Shown: one piece after another, positions 8,890-55,012 of the stretch | Layout: each line of letters starts with the position of its first letter | Position numbering within the stretch: the first letter of the stretch is position 1 | Assembly: GCF_029167375.1 (NCBI RefSeq) | Contig: NZ_JARFTP010000006.1 | Span: 147,320 to 211,319 of the forward strand | Source: Tsukamurella sp. 8F | Lineage (GTDB): Bacteria > Actinomycetota > Actinomycetes > Mycobacteriales > Mycobacteriaceae | Direction of reading: 5' to 3' | DNA length: 64,000 bases | Program-made: the position numbers and the translations under genes | The notes under the pieces: generated by a model | Seen by the model: only the letters and a program-made list of their open reading frames with translations | Told to the model about the DNA's origin: nothing | Databases searched by the model: none

Positions 8890-9795
8890 ATGCACGTATT
8901 CGTCACGGGCGCAACGGGATGGATAGGTTCGGCCGCTGTCGACGAGCTCCTCGCCGCAGGCCACCATGTGGTCGGCCTCGCGCGCACAGCGCAATCGGCC
9001 GAGGCGCTGCGGGCCAAGGGCGCGACCGCCCTGCGCGGCGACCTCGACGACCTGGCATCGCTGCGGGCCGGTGCCCGTACGGCCGACGCAGTGGTCCACC
9101 TGGCCAACAAGCACGACTGGGGTGATCCGGAAGAGACGGACCGCGCGGAACGGGCGGCCGTGCAGGCGATGCTGGAGACACTCGAGGGGACGGACAGGCC
9201 GTTCTTGATCGCCAACGGACTGTCGGGCCTCGTCGAAGGCCGTGCAGCCGTCGAGACCGACCCGTCCCCCGCCGTCGGTCCCGGCTCCGATCGCGGAGGC
9301 AGCGAGAACCTCTCCCTGGACTACGCCGACCGCGGAGTCCGGACGATGGCGGTACGCTTCGCGCCGTCCGTGCACGGGCGCGGAGACTGGGGGTTCGTGA
9401 ACTGGCTGGTAGCCGCCGCACGCAAGCGTGGCGTCTCCGGCTACGTCGGCGACGGGACCGACGCGTGGTCGGCCGTCCACCGCGGCGACGCCGCGCGGCT
9501 GATCCGTCTCGGCCTCGAGGAGGCCCCTGCGGGAAGCAGACTGCACGCCGTCGCCGAGGAGTCGATCCCCACACACACCATCGCGGAAGCGATCGGGGAG
9601 ACGCTGGGGCTGCCCGTGCAGTCCGTCGACCCCGACGAGACCGATGAGCATTTCGGCGTCGTCGGTCGGTTCTTCGGCCGCACCATGACCGGCTCCAGCG
9701 ATCTGACCCGCTCGACGGTGGGCTGGCAACCCGTAGGACCGGGCCTCGTCGCCGATATCCGTTCCGGCGCATACACGGACGGGATCGACCGATGA
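8890..9795 (+). CDS. Extended SDR / NAD-dependent epimerase-like oxidoreductase
   Basis: A 301-residue enzyme with a Rossmann start VFVTGATGWIGSAAV, and a paralogue of the SDR at 1292-2176 by its N-terminal motif and C-terminal VGWQPVGPGL. The start is supported by an AGGAGAAG ribosome-binding site 5 nt before the ATG. Its last four bases overlap the MFS gene (ATGA), so it is the first gene of a three-gene operon driven away from the TetR at 8171-8755. The substrate is unknown; the exporter downstream suggests modification or detoxification of a small molecule. Confidence 0.87.
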   Translation: MHVFVTGATGWIGSAAVDELLAAGHHVVGLARTAQSAEALRAKGATALRGDLDDLASLRAGARTADAVVHLANKHDWGDPEETDRAERAAVQAMLETLEGTDRPFLIANGLSGLVEGRAAVETDPSPAVGPGSDRGGSENLSLDYADRGVRTMAVRFAPSVHGRGDWGFVNWLVAAARKRGVSGYVGDGTDAWSAVHRGDAARLIRLGLEEAPAGSRLHAVAEESIPTHTIAEAIGETLGLPVQSVDPDETDEHFGVVGRFFGRTMTGSSDLTRSTVGWQPVGPGLVADIRSGAYTDGIDR

Positions 9796-12400: not shown

Positions 12401-13271
12401 CGGCTAGGCGCGCGACGGTGCCGATCGCGCGATCCACCTCCGGCAACGACGGCGTCGAGCGCGCACTCATCGTGAACACCGCGACGGACACCGGGTGCTC
12501 GCCGGGGAACTCGACCACCGCGATCTCGTTGCGGATCGCCGCCAGCGTGCCGGTCTTGCCCGCGACGACGGTCGTCCGGGTAGGGAATCCGGAGGCGATC
12601 CGCGAGCGAGAGACTTGGCGGCGCATGGTGTCCCGGATGAGTGCACACGCGGCGGGTGACGCCGCACGGTCGGTCCAGACCGCAGCCAGCAACGCGGTGC
12701 AGTCACGCGCCGTGCCCGCGCTGTTGTACGCCGCGTCGTAAGCCGTCGGCGACGTGCCGCGTTCGGGGTCCGAGAGCGCCGCGAAAGCCTCTTCCACCGT
12801 GGTGGTCCCGGTCTCGGCCCGGAGCCGCGCATGCAGCTCGGCCACTCCCCCGACGATGCGCGTCTGCCGCAGGCCCAACTCGCCGAGATCGTCCAGTACC
12901 CGATCTATCCCCACTCGTGCGAGGATCACGTCGGCCGCCGCGTTGTCCGATACCGTCATCATCGAATGCGCGAGGTCGCGCCAACTCATCACCACCGGGT
13001 CGGCGAGCGCGGAGACGCCGGTCGGGCCCTCCGCACACCGGGCCGGATCGACCCGAACGGTCGCGGTCAGGTCGATCTCGTTCCGGTCCGCGAGTCGATA
13101 CAGCGAGATCATCAGCGGCAGCTTGTACACCGACGCCAAGACCACGGGAGTATCCGCACCGTAGTCGAATTCGGCACGCGACCCACCTATCCGAGCAGCG
13201 TGGACCCAGCCGGAGCAACCGGCATCGACGAGGATCGCGCGGACTCGACGCTCGAGTGTGTCGGCGGTCAT
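12354..13271 (-). CDS. Class A beta-lactamase-fold serine hydrolase, no signal peptide
   Basis: A 305-residue serine hydrolase of the beta-lactamase/transpeptidase fold. The three family motifs are present: SVYK (residues 47-50, nucleophile Ser47), SDN (108-110) and KTG (239-241). A clear omega-loop ExxLN, which supplies the deacylating Glu of true class A enzymes, is not seen. I use the ATG at 13271, which overlaps the LysR stop (ATGA); upstream in-frame sequence is antisense to LysR. No signal peptide is visible, so it is predicted to be cytoplasmic. It is co-transcribed with the LysR gene. Confidence 0.82.
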   Translation of the reverse strand: MTADTLERRVRAILVDAGCSGWVHAARIGGSRAEFDYGADTPVVLASVYKLPLMISLYRLADRNEIDLTATVRVDPARCAEGPTGVSALADPVVMSWRDLAHSMMTVSDNAAADVILARVGIDRVLDDLGELGLRQTRIVGGVAELHARLRAETGTTTVEEAFAALSDPERGTSPTAYDAAYNSAGTARDCTALLAAVWTDRAASPAACALIRDTMRRQVSRSRIASGFPTRTTVVAGKTGTLAAIRNEIAVVEFPGEHPVSVAVFTMSARSTPSLPEVDRAIGTVARLAVTDLRHPSDPASRMR

Positions 13272-18873: not shown

Positions 18874-19233
18874 GTGAACCCGTACGTGCCCATCCTGATA
18901 CTCGGTGCGATCGCGACTGCCTTCGCCGTCTTCTCAGCCGGAATCGCGCAGTTCATCGGCCCGCGTCGGTACAACCGTGCCAAGTTGAGCGCATACGAGT
19001 GCGGCATCGACCCGACGCCCCATCCCGAGGGAGGCGGCCGCTTCCCCGTGAAGTTCTACCTCACGGCGATGCTGTTCATCGTCTTCGACATCGAGATCGT
19101 CTTCCTCTACCCGTGGGCGGTGCACCTCGACGCGCTCGGCACGTACGGCCTCGTCGCGATGGCGCTGTTCCTCGTCAATGCGACGGTCGCCTACGTCTAC
19201 GAGTGGCGGCGGGGAGGACTGACATGGGACTAG
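18874..19233 (+). CDS. nuoA: NADH-quinone oxidoreductase subunit A
   Basis: This is a 119-residue membrane subunit of complex I with three transmembrane segments. The conserved loop [12 protein letters not shown] and the segment [16 protein letters not shown] identify NuoA (ND3 homologue). I use the GTG at 18874, 10 nt after an AAGGAG ribosome-binding site, because it gives the family start VNPYVPIL; the earlier ATG adds unrelated residues. It is the first gene of the nuo operon and overlaps nuoB by 10 nt. Confidence 0.93.
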
Positions 19234-19778
19234 AGGAGAAGGTTCCCGGCGGTTTCCTGCTGACCACCCTCGAGTACGCGGCCGGCTACGCGCGCAAGGG
19301 CTCGCTGTGGCCCGCCACGTTCGGCCTCGCGTGCTGCGCCATCGAGATGATGGCCACGACCGGCCCCCGCTTCGACATCGCTCGATTCGGCATGGAGGCG
19401 TTCCGCGCGTCACCGCGGCAGGCGGATCTGATGATCGTCGCGGGCCGCGTCAGCCAGAAGATGGCACCCGTACTCCGGCAGGTGTACGACCAGATGGTCG
19501 AGCCCAAATGGGTCCTCGCGATGGGCGTGTGCGCCAGTTCGGGAGGCATGTTCAACAACTACGCGGTCGTGCAGGGGGTCGACCACGTGGTTCCCGTCGA
19601 CATCTACCTGCCCGGCTGCCCGCCGCGGCCGGAGATGCTGCTCAACGCGGTGATGGCTCTCCACGAGAAGATCGCGCACATGCCCCTGGGCGTGCACCGC
19701 GAGGAGGCCGTGCGCGCTGCGGAGGAGGCCGCACTATCCGCCCGCCCCACCATCGAGTTCAAGGGGCTGCTGCGATGA
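19224..19778 (+). CDS. nuoB: NADH-quinone oxidoreductase subunit B
   Basis: A 184-residue peripheral-arm subunit that binds the terminal Fe-S cluster N2 and passes electrons to quinone. The cluster ligands are visible in [23 protein letters not shown] and LPGCPPRPE. The ATG at 19224 lies within the end of nuoA behind a GGAGG ribosome-binding site. Its stop overlaps nuoC (ATGA). Confidence 0.95.
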
Positions 19779-20461
19779 CGGAGGAGAACGGGACGAACGT
19801 ACCGGCGACCGCGTCCACGCCGGAGGTCGTCGGCGAGCGACGCGGCATGTTCGGCTCGAGCGGTAGCGGCGACACGTCGGGCTACGGGAGGCTGCGGCGC
19901 CCCGTCGCCCTGCCGGGGCCCGGGTCCGAGCCCCTCCCGCCCGGTTACGACGGTGTGCTGGCACGCCTCGCGGAGACGGCCGGGCCGGACGGGGTCTCGG
20001 CCGTCGTCGTGTACCGGGGCGAGGTCACACTGCGCGTGCCGCGCGACCACCTCGTGGGCGTCGCACGGCGGCTACGGGACGAACCGGATCTCCGGTTCGA
20101 GTTGTGCCTGGGCGTGAGCGGTGTGCACTATCCGGACGACGACGGTGCCGAGCTCCGCTCCATCACGCACCTGATGTCGATCACGCACAACCGCCGGCTT
20201 CGTCTCGAGACGTCTTGCCCGGACTCCGATCCGCACGTCCCGTCGCTGTTCGACGTGTACCCGACCGTCGACTGGCATGAGCGCGAGACGTACGACTTCT
20301 TCGGGATCGTCTACGACGGCCACCCGTCGCTCACTCGGATCGAGATGCCCGACGACTGGGAGGGCCACCCGCAACGCAAGGACTACCCGCTCGGCGGGAT
20401 CGGGGTCGAGTTCCACGGAGCACAGATCGCGCCGCCCGATACGAGGAGGTCGTACTCGTGA
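19775..20461 (+). CDS. nuoC: NADH-quinone oxidoreductase subunit C
   Basis: A 228-residue, 30-kDa-type subunit of the complex I connecting fragment. The family signature is [19 protein letters not shown], followed by RKDYPLGG. The first roughly 55 residues are a low-complexity, Gly/Pro-rich extension seen in actinobacterial NuoC. It is separate from NuoD, unlike the fused E. coli protein, and overlaps nuoD by 4 nt (GTGA). Confidence 0.94.
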
Positions 20462-21735
20462 CCACCTACACAGCGGTCGGAAACGACTGGGACACTCTGG
20501 CTGAGGAGGCCGCGGGGCACGAGCGCATCGTCGTCAACATGGGACCGCAGCACCCATCGACGCACGGCGTCATGCGCCTCATCCTCGAACTCGACGGCGA
20601 GACGGTCACCGAGGCCCGCGTCGGAATCGGATTCCTGCACACCGGAATCGAGAAGAACCTCGAGTTCCGCACGTGGACGCAGGGCACGACGTTCGTCACC
20701 CGGATGGACTACCTGGCACCGCTGTTCAACGAGACCGGCTACTGCCTCGCGGTCGAGAAGCTGCTCGGAATAACCGATCGTGTTCCGCAGCGCGCCAACG
20801 TCATCCGCGTGATGCTCATGGAGCTGAACCGCATCACGAGCCACCTCGTCTGCCTCGCCACCGGGGGAATGGAGCTGGGTGCCGTATCACCCATGCTGTT
20901 CGGCTTCGAAGCGCGCGAGATGATCCTCGAGGTCTTCGAGCTCATCACAGGCCTGCGCATGAACCACGCCTACATGCGTCCGGGTGGCGTCGCTGCGGAC
21001 CTGCCCGACGAAGCCGTGCCGGCCGTTCAGAACCTGCTCAGGACGCTACCGCCCAAGCTGCGTGAGTTGTCGGACCTGTTGACCGACAACCCGATCTGGA
21101 TCGGTCGCACCAAGGACATCGGCTACCTCGATCTCACGGGGTCGATGGCCCTCGGCATAACCGGGCCGTGCCTGCGGTCCACCGGCCTGCCGCACGACCT
21201 ACGGCGCAGCGAACCCTACTGCGGGTACGAGGACTACGAGTTCGATGTCGTCACCGAGACCGGATGCGACTGCTACGCGAGATATCTGGTGCGGGTGCGA
21301 GAGATGTGGGAGTCGCTGAGAATCGTCGAACAGTGCCTCGGAAGGCTCGAGCCCGGCCCCGTGATGGTCGACGGCGCCGAGCTCGGCTGGCCCGCCGATC
21401 TCACGACCGGACCCGATGGAATCGGCAACTCCCGCAAGCACATCGCCGAGATAATGGGCTCCGATATGGAGTCGCTGATCCACCATTTCAAGCTGGTCAC
21501 CGAGGGCTTCCGGGTTCCCGCCGGCCAGGTCACGACTTCGATCGAGTGCCCGCGTGGCGAGCTCGCGGTGCACGCTGTGTCCGACGGCGGGACCCGGCCC
21601 TACCGCGTGCACTTCCGCGATCCCTCGTTCACGAATCTGCAGGCTGTGGCGGCGATGTGCGAGGGCGGCATGGTCTCCGACGTGATCGCCGCGGTGGCGA
21701 GTATCGATCCTGTGATGGGAGGTGTGGACCGGTGA
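20458..21735 (+). CDS. nuoD: NADH-quinone oxidoreductase subunit D
   Basis: A 425-residue, 49-kDa-type subunit that forms the quinone pocket with NuoB. Visible family motifs are [21 protein letters not shown] near the N-terminus and the C-terminal [15 protein letters not shown]. The usual hydrogenase-like Cys ligands are absent, as expected for complex I. The GTG start overlaps the nuoC stop. Confidence 0.95.
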
Positions 21736-46956: not shown

Positions 46957-47847
46957 ATGCTGTTCCGCCAGCTCGAATACTTCGTCGCCCTCGCGCGCGA
47001 GCGGCACTTCGCCCGCGCGGCGCAGGCCTGTTACGTGTCCCAGCCCGCGCTGTCGGAGGCCGTCCGCAAGCTCGAGCGCGAGCTCGACGTACCGCTCGTG
47101 CGCCGGGGCTCGAGCTTCGAGGGCCTCACTCCCGAGGGAGAGCGGCTCGTCCTGTGGGCGCGCCGCATCCTCGCCGATCGCGACGCCCTCGAGCACGAGG
47201 TCACGGCGTTGCGCACCGGCCTCACCGGCGACCTGCGCCTGGGCGTGATCCCGGCGGCGACGATCAGCGTCGCCCGGCTGATCGACCCGTTCTGCGCCCT
47301 CCACCCCCTGGTGCGGGTAACAGTCGAGACCGGTCTGCGTTCAGCGGAGATCGTCGGGCGCTTACAGCGCTTCGAACTCGAGGCCGGTGTCGTGTTCACG
47401 GATGGTGTCGACACCGAGGGGCTCACGCTGACTCCTCTGTACCGCGAGCGGCACGTCCTCGTCGGGAGCGCCGAGCTACTGCCCGACGGTCCGCTCACAT
47501 GGGCCGACGCCGTCGGTCTTCCCCTCTGTCTCCTGCACTCGGGTATGCGCGGGCGGGATCGGATCGACGAGGCCGCCTCGCCGCACGGGTTGACCGTGGT
47601 CCCGCGCCTCGAATGTGACTCCGTCGCCACTCTGCTCGCCCTCGTCGACACTGGACACTGGGCCTCGATCGTGCCGCGCGCGTGGCTGTCCGGGCACCGC
47701 GCCCAGCCGGGCATGCGCATCGTGGAACTCGACGGTGCACCGCTCGGCGGCGACGTAGCGCTCGTGCGCCGCGCGGGCGAGCCCGCCTCGGTACTGGCCA
47801 CCGCACTGCAGGAGAGCCTGCGTTCGGAGCGCGCCGGCGCGCGGTGA
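46957..47847 (+). CDS. LysR-family transcriptional regulator
   Basis: A 296-residue LTTR with an N-terminal helix-turn-helix (ARAAQACYVSQPALSEAVRKL) and a substrate-binding domain. An AAAAGG ribosome-binding site precedes the ATG. The gene is divergent from the FUSC exporter, a common LysR/efflux pairing, and ends 3 nt from the convergent hypothetical gene at 47851. Confidence 0.88.
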   Translation: MLFRQLEYFVALARERHFARAAQACYVSQPALSEAVRKLERELDVPLVRRGSSFEGLTPEGERLVLWARRILADRDALEHEVTALRTGLTGDLRLGVIPAATISVARLIDPFCALHPLVRVTVETGLRSAEIVGRLQRFELEAGVVFTDGVDTEGLTLTPLYRERHVLVGSAELLPDGPLTWADAVGLPLCLLHSGMRGRDRIDEAASPHGLTVVPRLECDSVATLLALVDTGHWASIVPRAWLSGHRAQPGMRIVELDGAPLGGDVALVRRAGEPASVLATALQESLRSERAGAR

Positions 47848-47850
47848 ACG

Positions 47851-48513
47851 CTAGCGCCGCAGGACGGCGACCGTCTCCGTCTCGAGCCGCCCATCGTCCG
47901 CAGCACTGAGGTCGACGTCTGCCACCCCGGCGACCGCCTGCGCGAGCTCGCCGTGATGGGACCGCAGACGGTCGACGAATCCCGCGGCCACATCGGACTT
48001 TCCGTGACCGTGCCCGAGCACCACGAACGGCCGGCCGCCGAGATCGGCTCGGACGGCGTCGGCCAGCTCATCGAAGTAGCCGGTCAGATCCGCGACGTCG
48101 TCGCGTCCGGTACGGCGCTCGACGGTGCGTAGCCGGCGCGCCCGCGGGTCGGTGTCGCGGATCGTCTCGCTGCGGTCGACGACCTTCTGTGCGTCGAGAT
48201 CGAACACCAGGATCCGGGCCTTCTCGGCGTCGATCGCGACGGCGGCCACCGTACCGACGCCCTTCGGCTCCGGGTGCGACTTCAGCAGGTGCCGAGCGCG
48301 CTCGACGTCCTCGATGGACACCCTGCCGTCGTGCGGTCGACGGAACACCTCGCGATGGCCTTGGTACTGAACCGCGAGCCGGTCGCCGGACTCGTTCGAC
48401 ACGCTGTCCGCGAGGTCGCTCCACAGCGTGACGAAGCGGTCCCATTCGAGATCGCGGGGCGCGGGGGCGCCGAGGATCGCCTCATAGGTCTTGCGCGTGT
48501 GTGCGTTCACCAT
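47851..48513 (-). CDS. Conserved protein of unknown function
   Basis: A 220-residue soluble protein without a signal peptide. The first 80 residues (W...LWSDLADSV, then SGDRLAVQYQGHREVFRRPH) look to me like a HicA-type double-stranded-RNA-binding fold with a central Arg/His-rich turn. The rest, with FDLDAQKVVDRSE and VVLGHGHGKSD, resembles release-factor-like (baeRF) domains. Both are tentative readings by eye. A GGAG ribosome-binding site lies 5 nt before the ATG. It is monocistronic. Confidence 0.6.
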   Translation of the reverse strand: MVNAHTRKTYEAILGAPAPRDLEWDRFVTLWSDLADSVSNESGDRLAVQYQGHREVFRRPHDGRVSIEDVERARHLLKSHPEPKGVGTVAAVAIDAEKARILVFDLDAQKVVDRSETIRDTDPRARRLRTVERRTGRDDVADLTGYFDELADAVRADLGGRPFVVLGHGHGKSDVAAGFVDRLRSHHGELAQAVAGVADVDLSAADDGRLETETVAVLRR

Positions 48514-48713
48514 TCGTCTCCGTTCTCGGTGTCTTCGTCATCCGACGCTATGCGGTGCCGCGGGTGGCGCGCGACCCGCGACCGCGCGTCGACCCCCATT
48601 CGCGGCGCCACGACGCGGCGTCGAACCGCCGCCACCGGCGGTGATCGGTAGCGCCTATCAGCTGTTCGGAACCGGGTCTTGGACTTCGCGGCGTACCCGT
48701 TCGACACTGGAAT

Positions 48714-48731
48714 CACCTTGGAGACAAGGTG
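48714..48731. promoter_or_regulatory. 18-bp palindrome CACCTTG-GAGA-CAAGGTG upstream of fdh
   Basis: Perfect 7-bp arms with a 4-nt centre lie 53 nt before the formate dehydrogenase ATG, in a 271-nt region otherwise without a gene. It is an operator candidate for the block that begins with fdh. The regulator is not identified. Confidence 0.5.
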
Positions 48732-48784
48732 TTCGGCGGCCGTAGCGACCGCCTCGAGATCAATGACCGATCTAGGAGAATCTG

Positions 48785-49966
48785 ATGGCGAAGATCCTGT
48801 GCGTGCTCTACCCGGACCCCGTCACCGGCTACCCGCCGGTGTACGCCCGGGACTCGATCCCCAGCATCACCGGGTACCCGGGGGGCCAGACGGTGCCGGA
48901 TCCGGACGCGCTCGGCTTCACACCCGGCCAGCTGCTCGGGTGCGTCTCGGGCGAGCTCGGGCTCCGCGAATACCTCGAGGCCGCGGGCCACGAGCTGGTG
49001 GTCACGTCCGACAAGGACGGGCCCGATTCCGAGTTCGAGAAGCACCTGCCCGACGCCGAAGTGGTTATCTCCCAACCATTCTGGCCCGCATACCTCAGCG
49101 CGGAGCGAATTGCGAAGGCCCCCGAGCTGAAGCTGGCGCTGACGGCCGGCATCGGCTCGGATCACGTGGATCTGGACGCCGCGATCAAGGCCGGCATCAC
49201 GGTGGCCGAGGTGACGTACAGCAACAGCATCAGCGTCGCCGAGCACGCCGTCATGCAGATCCTCGCGCTGGTACGCAACTACCTACCGTCCCATCAATGG
49301 GTGGTCGACGGAGGCTGGAACATCGCGGACTGCGTCGAGCGTGCCTACGACCTCGAGGGGTTCGACGTGGGCATCATCGCGGCAGGGCGGATCGGTCAGG
49401 CCGTCCTGCGCCGCCTCGCCCCGTTCGACGTGAACCTGCACTACTTCGACACGCGCCGACTGCCCGAGGAGGTGGAGAAGGAGCTGAACCTCACGTACCA
49501 CCCGGACGTGCAGTCCTTGGTCAGCTCCGTCGACGTGGTCGATATCCACGCACCGTTGCACCCGCAGACCTATCACCTGTTCGATGCGAACCTCATAAAC
49601 TCGATGCGGCGCGGTTCCTACATCGTCAACACCGCACGCGCCGAGATCACTGTGCGCGACGACATCGTCGACGCCCTGCGCACCGGACAGCTCGCCGGCT
49701 ACGCGGGCGACGTCTGGTTCCCGCAGCCGCCGGCGCCGGACCACCCGTGGCGCACGATGCCGCACGAGGCCATGACGCCGCACGTGTCCGGTTCGACGCT
49801 CTCGGCGCAGGCGCGATACGCGGCCGGCACACGCGAGATACTGGAGGACTACTTCGCTTCCCAACCCATCCGGGACGAGTACCTCATCGTGGCGGGTGGC
49901 GCTCTCGCGGGTACCGGGGCCGCGTCCTACACAGCCGACGGCAAGGCGAGCCCCGGCGCCGAATAG
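48785..49966 (+). CDS. fdh: NAD-dependent formate dehydrogenase (D-2-hydroxyacid dehydrogenase type)
   Basis: A 393-residue, metal-free enzyme that oxidises formate to CO2 with NAD+. It closely follows the Pseudomonas sp. 101 enzyme: the start MAKILCVLYPDPVTGYP, the NAD motif AAGRIGQAVLRRL, YAGDVWFPQPPAPDHPWRT, and the active-site His/Ser segment MTPHVSGSTLSAQAR. An AGGAGAA ribosome-binding site precedes the ATG. It is the gene before dyp (56 nt gap). Formate-derived NADH would feed the nuo/ndh chain. Confidence 0.93.
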   Translation: MAKILCVLYPDPVTGYPPVYARDSIPSITGYPGGQTVPDPDALGFTPGQLLGCVSGELGLREYLEAAGHELVVTSDKDGPDSEFEKHLPDAEVVISQPFWPAYLSAERIAKAPELKLALTAGIGSDHVDLDAAIKAGITVAEVTYSNSISVAEHAVMQILALVRNYLPSHQWVVDGGWNIADCVERAYDLEGFDVGIIAAGRIGQAVLRRLAPFDVNLHYFDTRRLPEEVEKELNLTYHPDVQSLVSSVDVVDIHAPLHPQTYHLFDANLINSMRRGSYIVNTARAEITVRDDIVDALRTGQLAGYAGDVWFPQPPAPDHPWRTMPHEAMTPHVSGSTLSAQARYAAGTREILEDYFASQPIRDEYLIVAGGALAGTGAASYTADGKASPGAE

Positions 49967-50022
49967 GGTGCGGCGTATTCTTGGAATCTCGGCCACGACA
50001 CACCTGGCATACGGAAGGTACG

Positions 50023-51039
50023 GTGACGACTGTGGTCCAGCCTCAGCCGATCCTCAACCCTTTGTCCAACGCCGCGGTCTTCTTGGTGCTGACCGTCGAC
50101 GAGGGCGGCGAGGACGCTGTCAACGAGGCCGTCGGTAACCTGACCGGCCTGGTGCGATCCGTCGGATTCCGTTATCCCGACAAGGATCTGTCGCTGGTCG
50201 CGTCGTTCGGCTCCGCCGCCTGGGACCGGTTGTTCTCCGGTCCCAGGCCGGCGGAGCTGCACCCGTTCGTAGAGCTGAAAGGGCCGCAACACGCACCGTC
50301 TACACCGGGCGACATCCTGCTGCACATCCGCGCCGGGGCGATGGACGCGTGCTTCGAACTGGCGTGGCGGATCGTCGAATCGCTCGCGGGCGCGGTGACC
50401 GTGGTCGACGAGGTGCACGGCTTCCGGTTCTTCGACAATCGGGATCTGCTCGGCTTCGTGGACGGCACGGAGAACCCCGAGGGGCAGGCCGCGGGCCGGG
50501 CCGTGTGGGTCGGCGACGAGGACTCCGAGCTCGCCGGTGGCAGTTACGTGATCGTGCAGAAGTACGTGCACGATATGGCGGCGTGGCGCTCCCTCACCAC
50601 CGAGCAGCAGGAGCTGGTGATCGGCCGGTCCAAACTCGAGGACATCGAGATGGCGGACGAGGACAAGCCAGCGGACGCACACATCAAGCTCAACGTGATC
50701 AACGACGAGAACGGCGAGCAGTTGCAGATCCTCCGGGCGAACATGCCCTTCGGCGAGATCGGCGACGGCGAGTTCGGCACGTACTTCATCGGGTACAGCC
50801 GCACGCCGTCGGTCACGGAACAGATGCTGCGCAACATGTTCCTGGGCGACCCGCCCGGCACAACCGACCGAATCCTGGACTTCTCCACCGCAGTGACCGG
50901 CTGTCTGTTCTTCACGCCGGCCGTCGACTTCCTAGACGACCCTCCTCCCCCGCCCGCACCCGCGCCCGAAGAGGAGCCGGCGCCTTCGAACCACACCGTC
51001 GGATCTCTCGCAATAGGCAGCCTGAAAGGACTCCGCTGA
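50023..51039 (+). CDS. dyp: DyP-type heme peroxidase, encapsulin cargo
   Basis: A 338-residue peroxidase that uses H2O2. The DyP signature GFVDGTENP (from residue 144), the heme-ligand His in KPADAHIKLN, and the distal Arg in ILRANMPFGE are all present. After a Pro/Glu-rich linker (residues about 307-323) the C-terminus ends in GSLAIGSLKGLR, the known encapsulin-targeting peptide. I use the GTG at 50023 behind a GGAAGG ribosome-binding site. It overlaps the encapsulin start, as in Brevibacterium and M. tuberculosis (Rv0799c-Rv0798c). Confidence 0.94.
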   Translation: MTTVVQPQPILNPLSNAAVFLVLTVDEGGEDAVNEAVGNLTGLVRSVGFRYPDKDLSLVASFGSAAWDRLFSGPRPAELHPFVELKGPQHAPSTPGDILLHIRAGAMDACFELAWRIVESLAGAVTVVDEVHGFRFFDNRDLLGFVDGTENPEGQAAGRAVWVGDEDSELAGGSYVIVQKYVHDMAAWRSLTTEQQELVIGRSKLEDIEMADEDKPADAHIKLNVINDENGEQLQILRANMPFGEIGDGEFGTYFIGYSRTPSVTEQMLRNMFLGDPPGTTDRILDFSTAVTGCLFFTPAVDFLDDPPPPPAPAPEEEPAPSNHTVGSLAIGSLKGLR

Positions 51040-51836
51040 TGAACAACCTGCACCGCTCCCTCGCTCCCGTAACCGAGGCCGCATGGTCGGAGATCGAGGA
51101 GGAGGCGACACGAACGTTCAAGCGGCACATCGCAGGTCGCCGCGTCGTCGACGTCAGCGAACCCGGTGGCCCGGCGCTCGCCGCTGTCGGGACCGGGCGC
51201 CTGCTGGACGCAGCGGAGCCCGGGACGGGCGTGAGCGCCCATTTGCGCGAGTCCCAGCCGCTCGTCCGGCTGCGTGCGCCGTTCACCGTGAGCCGAGCGG
51301 CGATCGACTCGGTGGAGCGGGGCGCGCAGGACGCCGACTGGGACCCCGTCAAGGCGGCCGCGAAGAACCTGGCGTTCGCCGAGGACCGCGCCGTGTTCGA
51401 GGGCTACAAGGCCGCGGACATCGAGGGTATCCGCGCGTCGAGCTCCAACACCCCGCTCACGCTGCCCTCCGATCCCAAGGGCTACCCCGATGTGGTCTCG
51501 CAGGCGCTCTCGGAGCTGCGCCTCGCCGGAGTCGACGGCCCCTACTCCGTCCTGTTGTCGGCCGACGCCTACACCAAGGTCAGCGAGACCTCCGATCACG
51601 GCTATCCGATCCGCGAGCACCTGAGCCGCCTCGTGGGAGGCGATATCATCTGGGCACCCGCCATCGACGGCGCCTTCGTCCTCACCACCCGCGGAGGCGA
51701 CTACGAGCTGCGACTCGGCACCGACGTCGAGATCGGCTACACGACGCACGACGACCAGTCGGTGCAGCTCTACCTGCAGGAGACCCTGACCTTCCTGGCC
51801 TACACGGCCGAGGCGTCCGTCGCGCTGTCGGCTTGA
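51039..51836 (+). CDS. enc: Family 1 encapsulin shell protein
   Basis: A 265-residue HK97-fold protein that self-assembles into a protein nanocompartment (T=1 in close homologues) around DyP. Family features are the N-terminal LHRSLAPVTEAAWSEIEEEA, GRRVVDVSEPGG, and the C-terminal VEIGYTTHDDQSVQLYLQET. Its length and the adjacent targeting-tagged peroxidase match linocin M18/Cfp29. It overlaps dyp by 1 nt and is followed 25 nt later by the Clp-type ATPase. Confidence 0.95.
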   Translation: MNNLHRSLAPVTEAAWSEIEEEATRTFKRHIAGRRVVDVSEPGGPALAAVGTGRLLDAAEPGTGVSAHLRESQPLVRLRAPFTVSRAAIDSVERGAQDADWDPVKAAAKNLAFAEDRAVFEGYKAADIEGIRASSSNTPLTLPSDPKGYPDVVSQALSELRLAGVDGPYSVLLSADAYTKVSETSDHGYPIREHLSRLVGGDIIWAPAIDGAFVLTTRGGDYELRLGTDVEIGYTTHDDQSVQLYLQETLTFLAYTAEASVALSA

Positions 51837-51861
51837 CGCTCAACGAGATCGGAGTTCGACG

Positions 51862-54357
51862 ATGACGGAGTTCGACGGGGTATTCGACGACATCTTCAAT
51901 CGGTTCTTCGGCTCGGGCGGCCCCGCGCGGCCGCAGGTCCAGCGGGTGGACCTGAACCGCCTGCTCAACGATCAGGCCAAGAACCTCATCGCAGAAGCGC
52001 AGGTCGCGGCCCGGGACTGGGGATCGAACGAGATCACGCCCGAGACCCTCCTCTACGCCGCGGCCATGAACGAGCCGACGCGGGACGTGATCTCGCGCCT
52101 CGGCCTCGAGCCGGACAAGGTCGCCGCGCAGATGAAGCAGGCCGGGCAGGCCGTGGCCGGGGGAGACGGGCAGGTCACGCTGAGCCCGGCCGCGAAGCGG
52201 GCGCTGCGTGCCGCGCAGCAACACGCGGCGCAGGCCGGCCTGTCGTATGTGGGCCCCGAGCACATCCTCCTCGGTATCGCCGACAACCCGGATACCACAG
52301 CGGCGCAGGCGCTCTCGCGGGCCAGCGGACTCGACGCCCAGGCCGGCGGCACGGCCGGGCAGGAGCAGAGCTCGACACCCACACTCGACGAGTACGGCCG
52401 CGATCTCACGGCGGAGGCCCGGGCGGGCAAAGTGGACCCCGTCGTCGGTCGGGCCGAAGAGATCGAGCAGACCATCGAGATCCTCTCGCGCCGCCGCAAG
52501 AACAACCCGGTGCTCATCGGCGACCCCGGCGTCGGCAAGACCGCCATCGTCGAAGGCCTCGCGCAGCGGATCGTGAACGACGATGTGCCCAAGACCCTCG
52601 CCGGTCGCCGCGTGCTCGCGCTCGATCTCAGTTCGATGGTCGCGGGCAGCAAGTACCGCGGCGAGTTCGAGGAGCGCCTGACGAAGGTGCTGGACGAGGT
52701 GCGCGAGCACTCCGACGAGCTGGTGGTGTTCATCGACGAGTTGCACACCATCATCGGTGCCGGCGGTGGCGGCGAGGGTTCGATGGACGCAGGCAACATG
52801 CTCAAGCCGGCCCTCGCGCGCGGCGAGCTGCACGCCATCGGCGCGACGACCATCGACGAGTACCGCAAGTACATCGAGAAGGACGCGGCGCTCGAGCGCC
52901 GGTTCCAACCCGTGATGGTCGCGGAGCCGTCCGTAGCGGACACCATCGAGATCCTGCGCGGGCTCGTCGACGTGTACGAGGAGCACCACCAGGTGCGGTA
53001 CTCCGACGAGTCGCTGATCGCGGCGGCGGAACTCTCGGACCGCTACCTGACGGACCGGTTCATGCCCGACAAGGCGATCGACCTCGTCGATCAGGCCGGA
53101 GCGCGAGTCCGGCTGCGCACCAAGACTCCTGACGCGGACACCCGCTCGCTCGAGGATGAGATCGCACGGCTGAACCGCGAGAAGGACAGCGCCGTCGCGA
53201 ACGAGGACTACACGGCGGCGAGCGAGCTGAAGGAGAAGCTCGCCGACGCCGAGGAGCGGCTCGCGTCCGCCGACAAGACCGTCGAGCCCGAGGTCACCGT
53301 CGTCGACATCGCCGAGGTGATCTCACGCCGCACCGGCATCCCGGTCGCCGACCTGACGGCCGAGGAGCGCGACAAACTGCTGCGCCTCGAGGACGACCTG
53401 CACCAACGCGTCATCGGGCAGGAGGAGGCCGTCGTCGCGGTCGCCGAGGCCGTACGGCGCGCCCGCGCCGGCCTCAAGGACCCGAACCGCCCCATCGGCT
53501 CGTTCCTGTTCCTCGGTCCCACGGGCGTCGGCAAGACCGAGCTCGCGAAGGCGCTCGCGGCAGCGGTATTCGGTGACGAGGACCGCCTCATCCGCTTCGA
53601 CATGAGCGAGTTCCAGGAGAAGCACACCGTCTCCCGGCTCGTCGGTGCGCCCCCCGGATACGTCGGCTACGAGGAGGCCGGTCAGCTCACGGACAAGGTT
53701 CGGCGGCAACCGTATTCGGTGATCCTGTTCGACGAGATCGAGAAGGCCCACCCCGACGTCTTCAACATCCTGTTGCAGTTGCTCGACGACGGTCGTGTCA
53801 CGGACGCGCAGGGGCGCACCGTCGACTTCAAGAACACCATCGTCATCCTCACCAGCAACATCGGCTCGGATCTGATCCTGGGCGCGCCCGACGGCGATCT
53901 GCCCCAGGGTGTGATCGACAAGGTGATGGACCGGCTGCACCAGCACTTCCGGCCCGAGTTCCTCAACCGGATCGACGAGACGGTGGTGTTCCACCGCCTC
54001 GACAAGGCCCAGCTGCGCAACATAGTCGGGCTCATCCTGGACGGCACGCGACACCTGCTGCGCGCGCAGGACGTAGAGCTCGACGTCACCGATAGGGCCG
54101 AGGACTGGCTCGCGGACACGGGCTTCGACCCACAGTTCGGCGCGCGACCGTTGCGCCGCACCGTCCAGCGCGAGCTGGACAACCGGCTGTCGTCGCTGCT
54201 GCTGAGGGGCACGGTGGGTCCCGGAGACACCGTGCGCGTGGACGCCGACGACGACGGCCTCGTACTGGAGACCGTGCATCCATCCGAGGGTGGGCGCGAA
54301 GTGACCGAGGGCAGCGTGCCCACGGGCACAGGAACGAAGGAGGACGGCGATGTCTGA
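51862..54357 (+). CDS. Hsp100/Clp-type AAA+ unfoldase, ClpC/ClpB-like without ClpP loop
   Basis: An 831-residue two-ring ATPase with a divergent N-domain (1-150). AAA1 has [13 protein letters not shown] near residue 218 and [11 protein letters not shown] short coiled middle domain with a UVR-like stretch follows (about 423-480). AAA2 has [13 protein letters not shown] near 551 and [13 protein letters not shown]. The short middle domain is ClpC-like. The loop after TSNIGSD that carries the ClpP-binding [LIV]GF in ClpC/ClpA has no such motif, so it probably acts without ClpP, as ClpB does. It is the third gene after dyp and enc. Confidence 0.88.
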
Positions 54358-54520
54358 GAACAGCGACGGGGCGGCGCCGGCCGACCTCGACGAGACCGCG
54401 GCGGAGGCGAAAGCCGAAGAGACCGAGACCCAGGTGGAGGCCGAGGCGGCCATCGGGGGCGATCTCGAGGACGACGTGGAGCTCGAGCCCGGTGGGATCA
54501 CGGACGTCCCCGACGTCTGA
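54350..54520 (+). CDS. 56-residue very acidic protein, last gene of the encapsulin operon
   Basis: A start codon at 54350 overlaps the end of the unfoldase gene by 8 nt, behind a strong AAGGAGG ribosome-binding site with 6-nt spacing. The 56-residue product starts [20 protein letters not shown] and ends GGITDVPDV. It is rich in Glu, Asp and Ala with almost no basic residue, so it is probably disordered or helical. Third-position GC fits the neighbours. The stop lies inside a hairpin terminator. It could be an adaptor, substrate or regulator of the unfoldase; no homologue is recognised. Confidence 0.7.
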   Translation: MSENSDGAAPADLDETAAEAKAEETETQVEAEAAIGGDLEDDVELEPGGITDVPDV

Positions 54521-54527
54521 TCCCACC
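54491..54527 (+). terminator. Hairpin terminator at the end of the encapsulin operon
   Basis: GGTGGGATCA (54491-54500) pairs exactly with TGATCCCACC (54518-54527). After a 2-nt bulge, an inner GACGTC pairs with GACGTC across a CCC loop, giving about 16 bp of stem. It includes the stop codon of the 56-residue gene and can serve the convergent epoxide-hydrolase-like gene as well. No clear T run is present, as is usual for actinobacterial terminators. Confidence 0.65.
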
Positions 54528-54556
54528 GCCACGGCTCTGGTCGGCGCATCGTCGAT

Positions 54557-55012
54557 CTAGTCGGCGAGGCGCGGAAACGTGGGGCGCAGGCGCGGCACCG
54601 CTGCGCCCGCACCCGCCCGCGCCACCGCCTTGGCGACCTCGAAGTAGTCGAAGTAGTCCTGCCACACAGCGATTCGACCTTCGCGTACCTCGAATCGGCT
54701 GCATACCCAGAACTGGATGCGGAACCGGCCGTAGGTCAGGGCGTTCACCCGCTCGGTGAGCACCACACCATCGTCGTCCGCCGCCGCGTGCAGCAGGACC
54801 GCTTCGAGTCTCCCGCGGGAGGCCGTCCGCTTGACGAAGTGGCGGGACACCGCGGTGCGGCCACGCAGCGTCCGCCAGGACGTGCGGGTATACACGACGT
54901 CGGGCGCGAGCATCCGGCCGGCGACGTCCATGTCCCCGTTCCCCCAGGCGTCCACGAACCGGACCGCCACGTCGTGGGGCGACCACAGCAACGACCTGTT
55001 CACGCGCACCAT
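54557..55012 (-). CDS. Limonene-1,2-epoxide hydrolase-like / SnoaL-fold protein
   Basis: A 151-residue NTF2-like protein of the limonene epoxide hydrolase type (compare M. tuberculosis Rv2740). The catalytic region reads LTERVNAL, and the later strand reads RIAVWQDYFDYFE. The Arg and the second Asp of the usual Asp-Arg-Asp triad are present, but the first Asp (as in ERVD) appears as Asn. It may have lost hydrolase activity or act on another substrate. The gene is monocistronic and convergent with the encapsulin operon. Confidence 0.75.
   Translation of the reverse strand: MVRVNRSLLWSPHDVAVRFVDAWGNGDMDVAGRMLAPDVVYTRTSWRTLRGRTAVSRHFVKRTASRGRLEAVLLHAAADDDGVVLTERVNALTYGRFRIQFWVCSRFEVREGRIAVWQDYFDYFEVAKAVARAGAGAAVPRLRPTFPRLAD

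Follow-up and report, generated by a model that had tools for sequence, protein, structure and literature searches.

What DyP encapsulins do in general is described as still speculative in the main text of PMC8346489, where a role in oxidative stress resistance is cited. A two-gene DyP-encapsulin operon yields loaded shells in E. coli (PMC10960027), and enterobacteria carry a transposon cluster of formate dehydrogenase (FDH), DyP, encapsulin (Enc) and RpoH (PMC10960027, PMC12140327). Among unfoldases, ClpG and ClpK are stand-alone disaggregases, and the ClpI/ClpIb class of Actinomycetota was defined by Jiang and Schmitz in 2023 (PMC10149685). These authors regard ClpIb as likely ClpP-independent; the main text of that paper gives no tested task or stated partner for ClpI, and the word encapsulin is absent from it. 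Here we describe a 64,000-nucleotide stretch of Tsukamurella sp. 8F (contig NZ_JARFTP010000006.1, positions 147,320 to 211,319; genome of 4.68 Mb), hereafter the window, in which a gene for a ClpIb-type unfoldase directly follows a dyp-enc pair.

The fdh, dyp, enc and clpIb genes and a small acidic open reading frame (ORF) form a co-directional run of five (Table 1), for which we infer a single transcript because of the 25-nt gap and the gene overlaps. DyP has the Dyp_perox_N/C domains, and its C-terminal tag GSLAIGSLKGLR fits the targeting peptide GSLxIGSLK. Enc has the Linocin_M18 domain (PF04454) and scores 340 bits with the encap_f1 model NF041155. The original prediction had the gene order, coordinates, spacings, tag and hairpin right, as family matches and fold statistics confirmed. 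The FDH gene, which ends 56 nt before dyp on the same strand and was called by NF005750 (685 bits versus a cut-off of 329), had not been part of it and turned out to be informative. Our preferred reading, plausible but tentative, is that ClpIb is a ClpP-independent disaggregase in a formate/peroxide stress cluster alongside dyp-enc and FDH.

Table 1. Features of the gene run and of its upstream neighbours in the window.
Feature	Position	Strand	Domains	Remarks
NAD-dependent formate dehydrogenase (FDH)	48785..49966	+		First gene of the co-directional run
DyP peroxidase	50023..51039	+		GTG start; 338 aa; C-terminal tag GSLAIGSLKGLR
Family 1 encapsulin shell (Enc)	51039..51836	+		265 aa; 1-nt overlap with dyp
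Double-ring AAA+ unfoldase, fits ClpIb class	51862..54357	+		831 aa; 25-nt gap after enc
Small acidic protein	54350..54520	+		56 aa; 8-nt overlap with clp
Long hairpin	54490..54529	+		Covers end of acidic gene; possible transcript end; without T tail
LysR-family regulator	46957..47847	+	PF03466/PF00126	Upstream of FDH
220-aa protein	47851-48513	-		Between LysR regulator and FDH gene

The window Clp fits the published ClpIb class by its loop without LGF and its short M-domain with a tyrosine. It comprises Clp_N, two AAA modules and ClpB_D2-small, with two Walker A motifs and intact ATPase motifs. From TSNIG to a second motif its loop spans 42 residues and lacks LGF; the same loop has 51 residues with VGLGF in the genome's own ClpC (L002) and 51 residues with LGF/IGF in three Streptomyces ClpIa proteins (L239-L241; loci are numbered with L and genomes with G). 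The short form was found in all enc-linked ClpI rows. The M-domain (residues 430-467, LEDEIARL...EDYTAAS...EERL) bears the tyrosine at its tip, and an N-terminal extension is present, as residue 6 of the ClpC1 chain aligns with query residue 36.

In a FastTree phylogeny of 122 rows, with long branches flagged and with L143 and L067-L071 removed because they duplicated other rows, the window Clp and ClpIa belonged to a 118-row ClpI group (support value 99). Outside it lay the genome's own ClpC, two ClpB-like proteins (L003, L004; the identities of L002-L004 were assigned in this analysis) and one ClpK. Bit scores placed the window Clp somewhat nearer ClpC than ClpB, both against PDB structures (ClpC1 809, ClpB 754) and against its own genome (ClpC 774, ClpB-like proteins 612-645). 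NCBIfam scores were 1008 bits for ClpB and 891/881 bits for ClpG/ClpK, all under the models' own cut-offs; with cut-offs of 1900 bits for the latter two, the protein is not assigned to ClpG or ClpK. Within the tree, ClpI of Georgenia ruanii (L117) grouped with Mycobacteriales rows and is 78% identical to that of the window, which suggests horizontal transfer.

The arrangement recurs within the genus. All 16 Tsukamurella genomes carry enc (two pieces in G159), and all 16 DyPs have a tag-like tail. ClpIb stands directly 3' of enc in 11/16 genomes, and the gap, measured in 10 of them, is 25-66 nt. Within the proposed enc-unfoldase-acidic gene order, the acidic gene proved not to be obligate. In the remaining five genomes, which retain enc and tagged DyP, either a C-terminal Clp remnant alone follows enc (G155) or ClpIb is absent from the enc locus (G150, G152, G160, G161). 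A genome-wide search found FDH in 12/16 genomes, namely all 11 with ClpIb and G160, which has it in two parts on separate contigs. FDH was not found genome-wide in G150, G152, G155 and G161, four of the five genomes without ClpIb, all of which retain tagged DyP and an open enc. Since fdh and clpIb lie on opposite sides of the retained dyp-enc, their joint absence points to an FDH-ClpIb link at least as much as to a shell-ClpIb link. In Tsukamurella sp. PLM1 (G159; L070/L175), dyp and enc each matched in two pieces, as if frameshifted, and ClpIb and the acidic gene were open.

Outside the genus, linkage was found in Streptomyces, where 48/199 genomes carry enc and 36 of those 48 also carry ClpI. 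In 10 of these 36, no more than 10 kb separates ClpI from dyp-enc, against about 0.08 expected from random placement, a crude figure that ignores kinship. ClpI follows enc in the same orientation in two genomes (G585, G1033), is convergent in one (G1032) and lies upstream of dyp-enc in seven. All 10 linked genomes fall in one 24-row ClpI subclade (support value 100), with none in the 18 other Streptomyces rows. Together with its recurrence in Tsukamurella, this supports the coupling of ClpI with DyP-Enc as more than a one-genome accident.

In the other samples the picture differed. In the first sample of the order (36 enc places in 34/150 genomes), DyP is present at all 29 non-Tsukamurella enc loci read, and none of them has a Clp within 1.5 kb. 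Among the 80 best ClpI matches in named genomes, two of the 75 non-Tsukamurella loci have enc within 10 kb. Of 397 genomes surveyed in the order, 161 had a ClpI-level match (E 1e-250) and 82 had enc; none of the nine non-Tsukamurella genomes with both was linked among the copies listed, which did not include the second copies of ClpI in G302 and G404. A ClpI-level match was found in none of 14 enc-positive phylum-sample genomes outside Streptomyces and the window's family. In these samples outside Tsukamurella the unfoldase thus occurs without enc at least as often as with it (enc within 10 kb in 2/75 loci, linkage in 0/9 genomes among the copies listed), the outcome that the original prediction had named as its refutation.

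Five regions were taken from the 63 records with an encapsulin match, including that of T. tyrosinosolvens. As candidates for a Clp near encapsulins in other phyla, one plasmid region each of E. coli, Sphingobium and Burkholderia was considered and rejected, no Clp being annotated there; none was annotated near the encapsulin on one Streptomyces plasmid either. On the Sphingobium plasmid pDE2 (L252), DyP-enc lies about 8 kb from the formaldehyde-metabolism gene fghA. Some of the loci read end at contig ends. Part of the gene calls come from a codon-bias script, whose small-gene calls are provisional.

These distributions bear on two other explanations. The first is a neutral neighbourhood in which stress genes gather and rearrange, so that ClpIb shares a transcript or region with dyp-enc and has no joint task. 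The absence of linkage among the copies listed in the nine order genomes would suit it, as would at least two losses of ClpIb in Tsukamurella with dyp-enc retained and the variable Streptomyces arrangements (downstream, upstream, convergent), with an acidic gene that shifts place. The Streptomyces excess over random placement, its restriction to one ClpI subclade and the joint absence of FDH and ClpIb from the same four Tsukamurella genomes argue against it, and we regard it as unlikely, if still a serious contender. The second makes ClpIb a dedicated chaperone of DyP, keeping or refolding the peroxidase before or outside encapsulation. It would explain Streptomyces G1013 (L258), where a DyP lacking the GSLxIGSLK tail has ClpI 23 nt downstream and enc was not found in the 18-kb stretch, and G1083 (L249), where clpI stands directly 5' of dyp-enc. 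It is made improbable by the 38/48 enc-positive Streptomyces without ClpI within 10 kb, by the Clp-free dyp-enc loci of the first order sample and by the 73/80 ClpI loci without DyP in the stretch read.

The neighbours that ClpI and dyp-enc share lead to the preferred reading of a formate/peroxide stress cluster. FDH-type genes, defined here as NAD FDH, FdhF/YdeP oxidoreductase, FDH-N type subunits, a related molybdopterin enzyme and fdhD, were tallied around ClpI and enc. FdhF/YdeP and/or FdhD occur in 8/10 linked Streptomyces ClpI loci, whereas FDH-type genes occur in 3/21 Streptomyces enc loci that have no ClpI nearby (p = 0.0007), the 21 being the part read of the 38 unlinked enc-positive genomes. 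They occur in 0/20 enc loci read in the window's family, a part of its enc-positive genomes. L250 (G1102), with ClpI 14.5 kb from enc and FDH-type genes between, was placed in neither the linked nor the unlinked set.

The Tsukamurella ClpIb clade is sister (support value 96) to Skermania and three Mycobacterium/Mycolicibacterium loci, where an FDH-type gene lies within 10 kb of ClpI in 4/4 loci and dyp-enc in 1/4. The Skermania locus carries an NAD-type FDH fragment and a molybdopterin enzyme, two Mycobacterium loci (L088, L089) have FDH-N type subunits directly downstream of ClpI, and in M. frederiksbergense FdhF/YdeP lies 44 nt upstream of ClpI. The flank tally comprised 114 rows, with L210 and three ClpIa rows excluded for want of wide-flank data. 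Among its 103 non-Tsukamurella ClpI rows, enc and an FDH-type gene were both near in 9, enc only in 2, an FDH-type gene only in 8 and neither in 84 (Fisher's test, p = 4.5e-7, ignoring kinship). A model for an acid-resistance oxidoreductase also hits FdhF/YdeP relatives, with scores under its cut-off.

Several details of these FDH-type loci were recorded. In L088 and L089 (~13116-13186), the FDH-N alpha gene after ClpI was called as two frames, and there may be an in-frame TGA read as selenocysteine. In Skermania (L084), a shortened NAD FDH frame lies just 5' of ClpI (8935-9480), and selB/selA-like genes, named by eye, lie further downstream (18882-21543).

The same data could mean that ClpIb serves formate dehydrogenases, by folding or rescue, with dyp-enc as a bystander. 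FDH does track ClpIb across the genus and its sister clade better than dyp-enc does. The NAD and molybdopterin types are unrelated, so that a single client contact is unlikely, and FDH-type genes are missing from the surroundings of most ClpI rows; we give this alternative little credence.

A number of observations weigh against the stress-cluster reading. Most non-Tsukamurella ClpI rows (84/103) lack both enc and an FDH-type gene nearby, although some of these loci are cut by contig ends, and a kinship-aware independent-pairs test gave a median p of 1, with too few pairs. FdhF/YdeP is a family name, formate oxidation being putative for these enzymes, and the Skermania molybdopterin enzyme scored below the cut-off of the FDH model. 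The unrelatedness of NAD-type and molybdopterin-type FDH argues against direct FDH-ClpI contact. Since ClpK lies outside ClpI in the tree, a disaggregase function of ClpIb is assigned by analogy. Within Tsukamurella, G160, the genome nearest to the window, has FDH but no ClpIb at the locus, making it the one discordant genome. In the 10 other ClpIb-bearing genomes the upstream FDH is 1.3-1.6 kb away, and one or two reverse-strand genes were called in the interval. A tree of the flanking genes (G160 left out) is compatible with placing the four genomes without ClpIb and FDH in one clade (p-AU 0.205), whereas the dyp+enc tree rejects this (p-AU 0.005); the four may stand for one loss or for several.

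The original prediction went further and proposed that the unfoldase unfolds, loads or turns over the cargo of the compartment. Gene order and tight spacing in Tsukamurella speak for it. The ClpP-docking loop is absent, and the five Tsukamurella genomes without ClpIb keep their tagged DyP and enc. The pores of a T=1 shell are too narrow for a threading hexamer. The untagged DyP-ClpI pair of Streptomyces G1013, with no enc found near, does not fit either. The two-gene operon loads itself in E. coli (PMC10960027), which together with the five genomes indicates that loading needs no unfoldase; assembly and loading are both predicted to proceed in the absence of ClpIb. Cargo handling therefore appears very improbable.

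In the stress-cluster reading, ClpIb, as a motor without a protease dock, would unfold or disaggregate proteins and release them. Disaggregase activity is predicted from the loss of the loop and from an Hsp20 gene that precedes ClpI in two Mycobacterium loci of the sister clade (106 nt upstream in L089, in the same place in L088). Its clients would be proteins damaged by the stress that the peroxidase compartment and FDH would answer, which its neighbours suggest to be formate or acid plus peroxide. The cluster would have three arms, with formate removal by FDH, a contained peroxidase in DyP-Enc and protein rescue by ClpIb. The ClpI-DyP-enc-FDH linkage gives encapsulin and ClpI a testable shared stress, and Streptomyces and Tsukamurella are hosts in which natural losses already offer comparisons.

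The small acidic ORF at the end of the run is a genuine gene, with a median pN/pS of 0.35 and conservation in relatives (11 aligned), and the T. tyrosinosolvens record lists it as a hypothetical protein. Of 7990 candidates scored in a database search, 20 were relatives at E 0.01, and those with an organism named came from Tsukamurella or Jongsikchunia. It is present in 15/16 Tsukamurella genomes, at the enc locus in 11. Its locus is an unrelated one in G153, G157, G163 and G160, and G150, G152 and G155 have it beside enc without ClpIb. Elsewhere it occurs 5' of a miaB-like gene (L202-L204) or 3' of a ribosomal operon (L205), both named by eye, and alone in a likely Jongsikchunia genome (L201). 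An obligate role in an encapsulin-Clp machine was rejected, as the gene is off the enc locus in 4/16 genomes and at enc without ClpIb in three; it is predicted to be an independent accessory gene or a passenger. A 34-residue charged peptide is encoded 3' of clp or of its remnant in seven Tsukamurella genomes. In 5/11 Streptomyces loci (L208, L245-L248), a small charged protein (54-97 aa, HHKSN near its start) is encoded 3' of ClpI.

The hairpin region (54480-54560) folds at -46.4 kcal/mol (z = -5.2), and 0/200 shuffles were equally good. No terminator-like site was found in 48700-54700, the hairpin having no T tail, and a consensus promoter scan returned one weak site versus 0.4 expected. Upstream, the 220-aa protein had no Pfam or NCBIfam matches; its homologue (55-56%) lies directly 3' of ClpI in two Gordonia loci (L098, L100). 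A LysR homologue is near ClpI in 9/80 loci from four genera. A DUF308/HdeD-like membrane gene, named by eye, is near ClpI in Saccharopolyspora, Actinospica and some Streptomyces (L122, L124, L128, L144 and others), in 7/80 loci by cluster and 8/80 by tblastn. The T. tyrosinosolvens locus carries the Clp and adjoins glmU, a ribose-phosphate diphosphokinase gene and pth.

Compared with known systems, all components are of known kinds, and what is new is their combination. No report of a Clp unfoldase (ClpI) beside an encapsulin was found among the listed matches in open-licence papers. The window protein shares with ClpIb of PMC10149685 a short M-domain with tyrosine, a short non-LGF loop, an N-terminal extension and a branch apart from ClpB/ClpC. 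That paper finds no strongly conserved neighbours of ClpI; here two subclades recur near FDH-type and DyP-enc genes. ClpG and ClpK resemble the window Clp as the next-best NCBIfam models after ClpB, and an Hsp20 gene precedes ClpK on an Enterobacter plasmid, as it does ClpI in the two Mycobacterium loci. They differ in that ClpK branches outside ClpI and the window Clp scores far below the family cut-offs.

With the classical DyP family 1 encapsulin operon (PMC8346489), the locus shares a tagged DyP directly 5' of the shell gene, and the DUF1345 accessory described there for Streptomyces was also found in Streptomyces loci here. The main text of that paper differs from our results in containing neither 'unfoldase' nor 'formate', and 'Clp' only as an abbreviation for cargo-loading peptide.

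The enterobacterial cluster likewise has an NAD FDH directly upstream of DyP-Enc and adds a heat-shock function; in an E. coli plasmid region, DyP-Enc-rpoH is preceded by a short NAD(P)-dependent oxidoreductase CDS. The T. tyrosinosolvens record shows no annotated transposase over 18.8 kb, and the window itself was not searched for them. It is possible, though we think it doubtful, that a recurrent actinobacterial formate-peroxide defence island exists, with ClpIb as the rescue arm and unrelated FDHs by lineage, and that enterobacteria follow the same three-part plan with RpoH in the place of ClpIb; formaldehyde, or formate together with hydrogen peroxide, may be the shared insult. No RpoH-like gene stands directly 3' of enc in the window, where ClpIb, the acidic ORF and an epoxide-hydrolase-like gene come next. 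The two clusters differ at this point, as the sigma factor RpoH follows enc in enterobacteria and an Hsp100 unfoldase holds that place in Tsukamurella.

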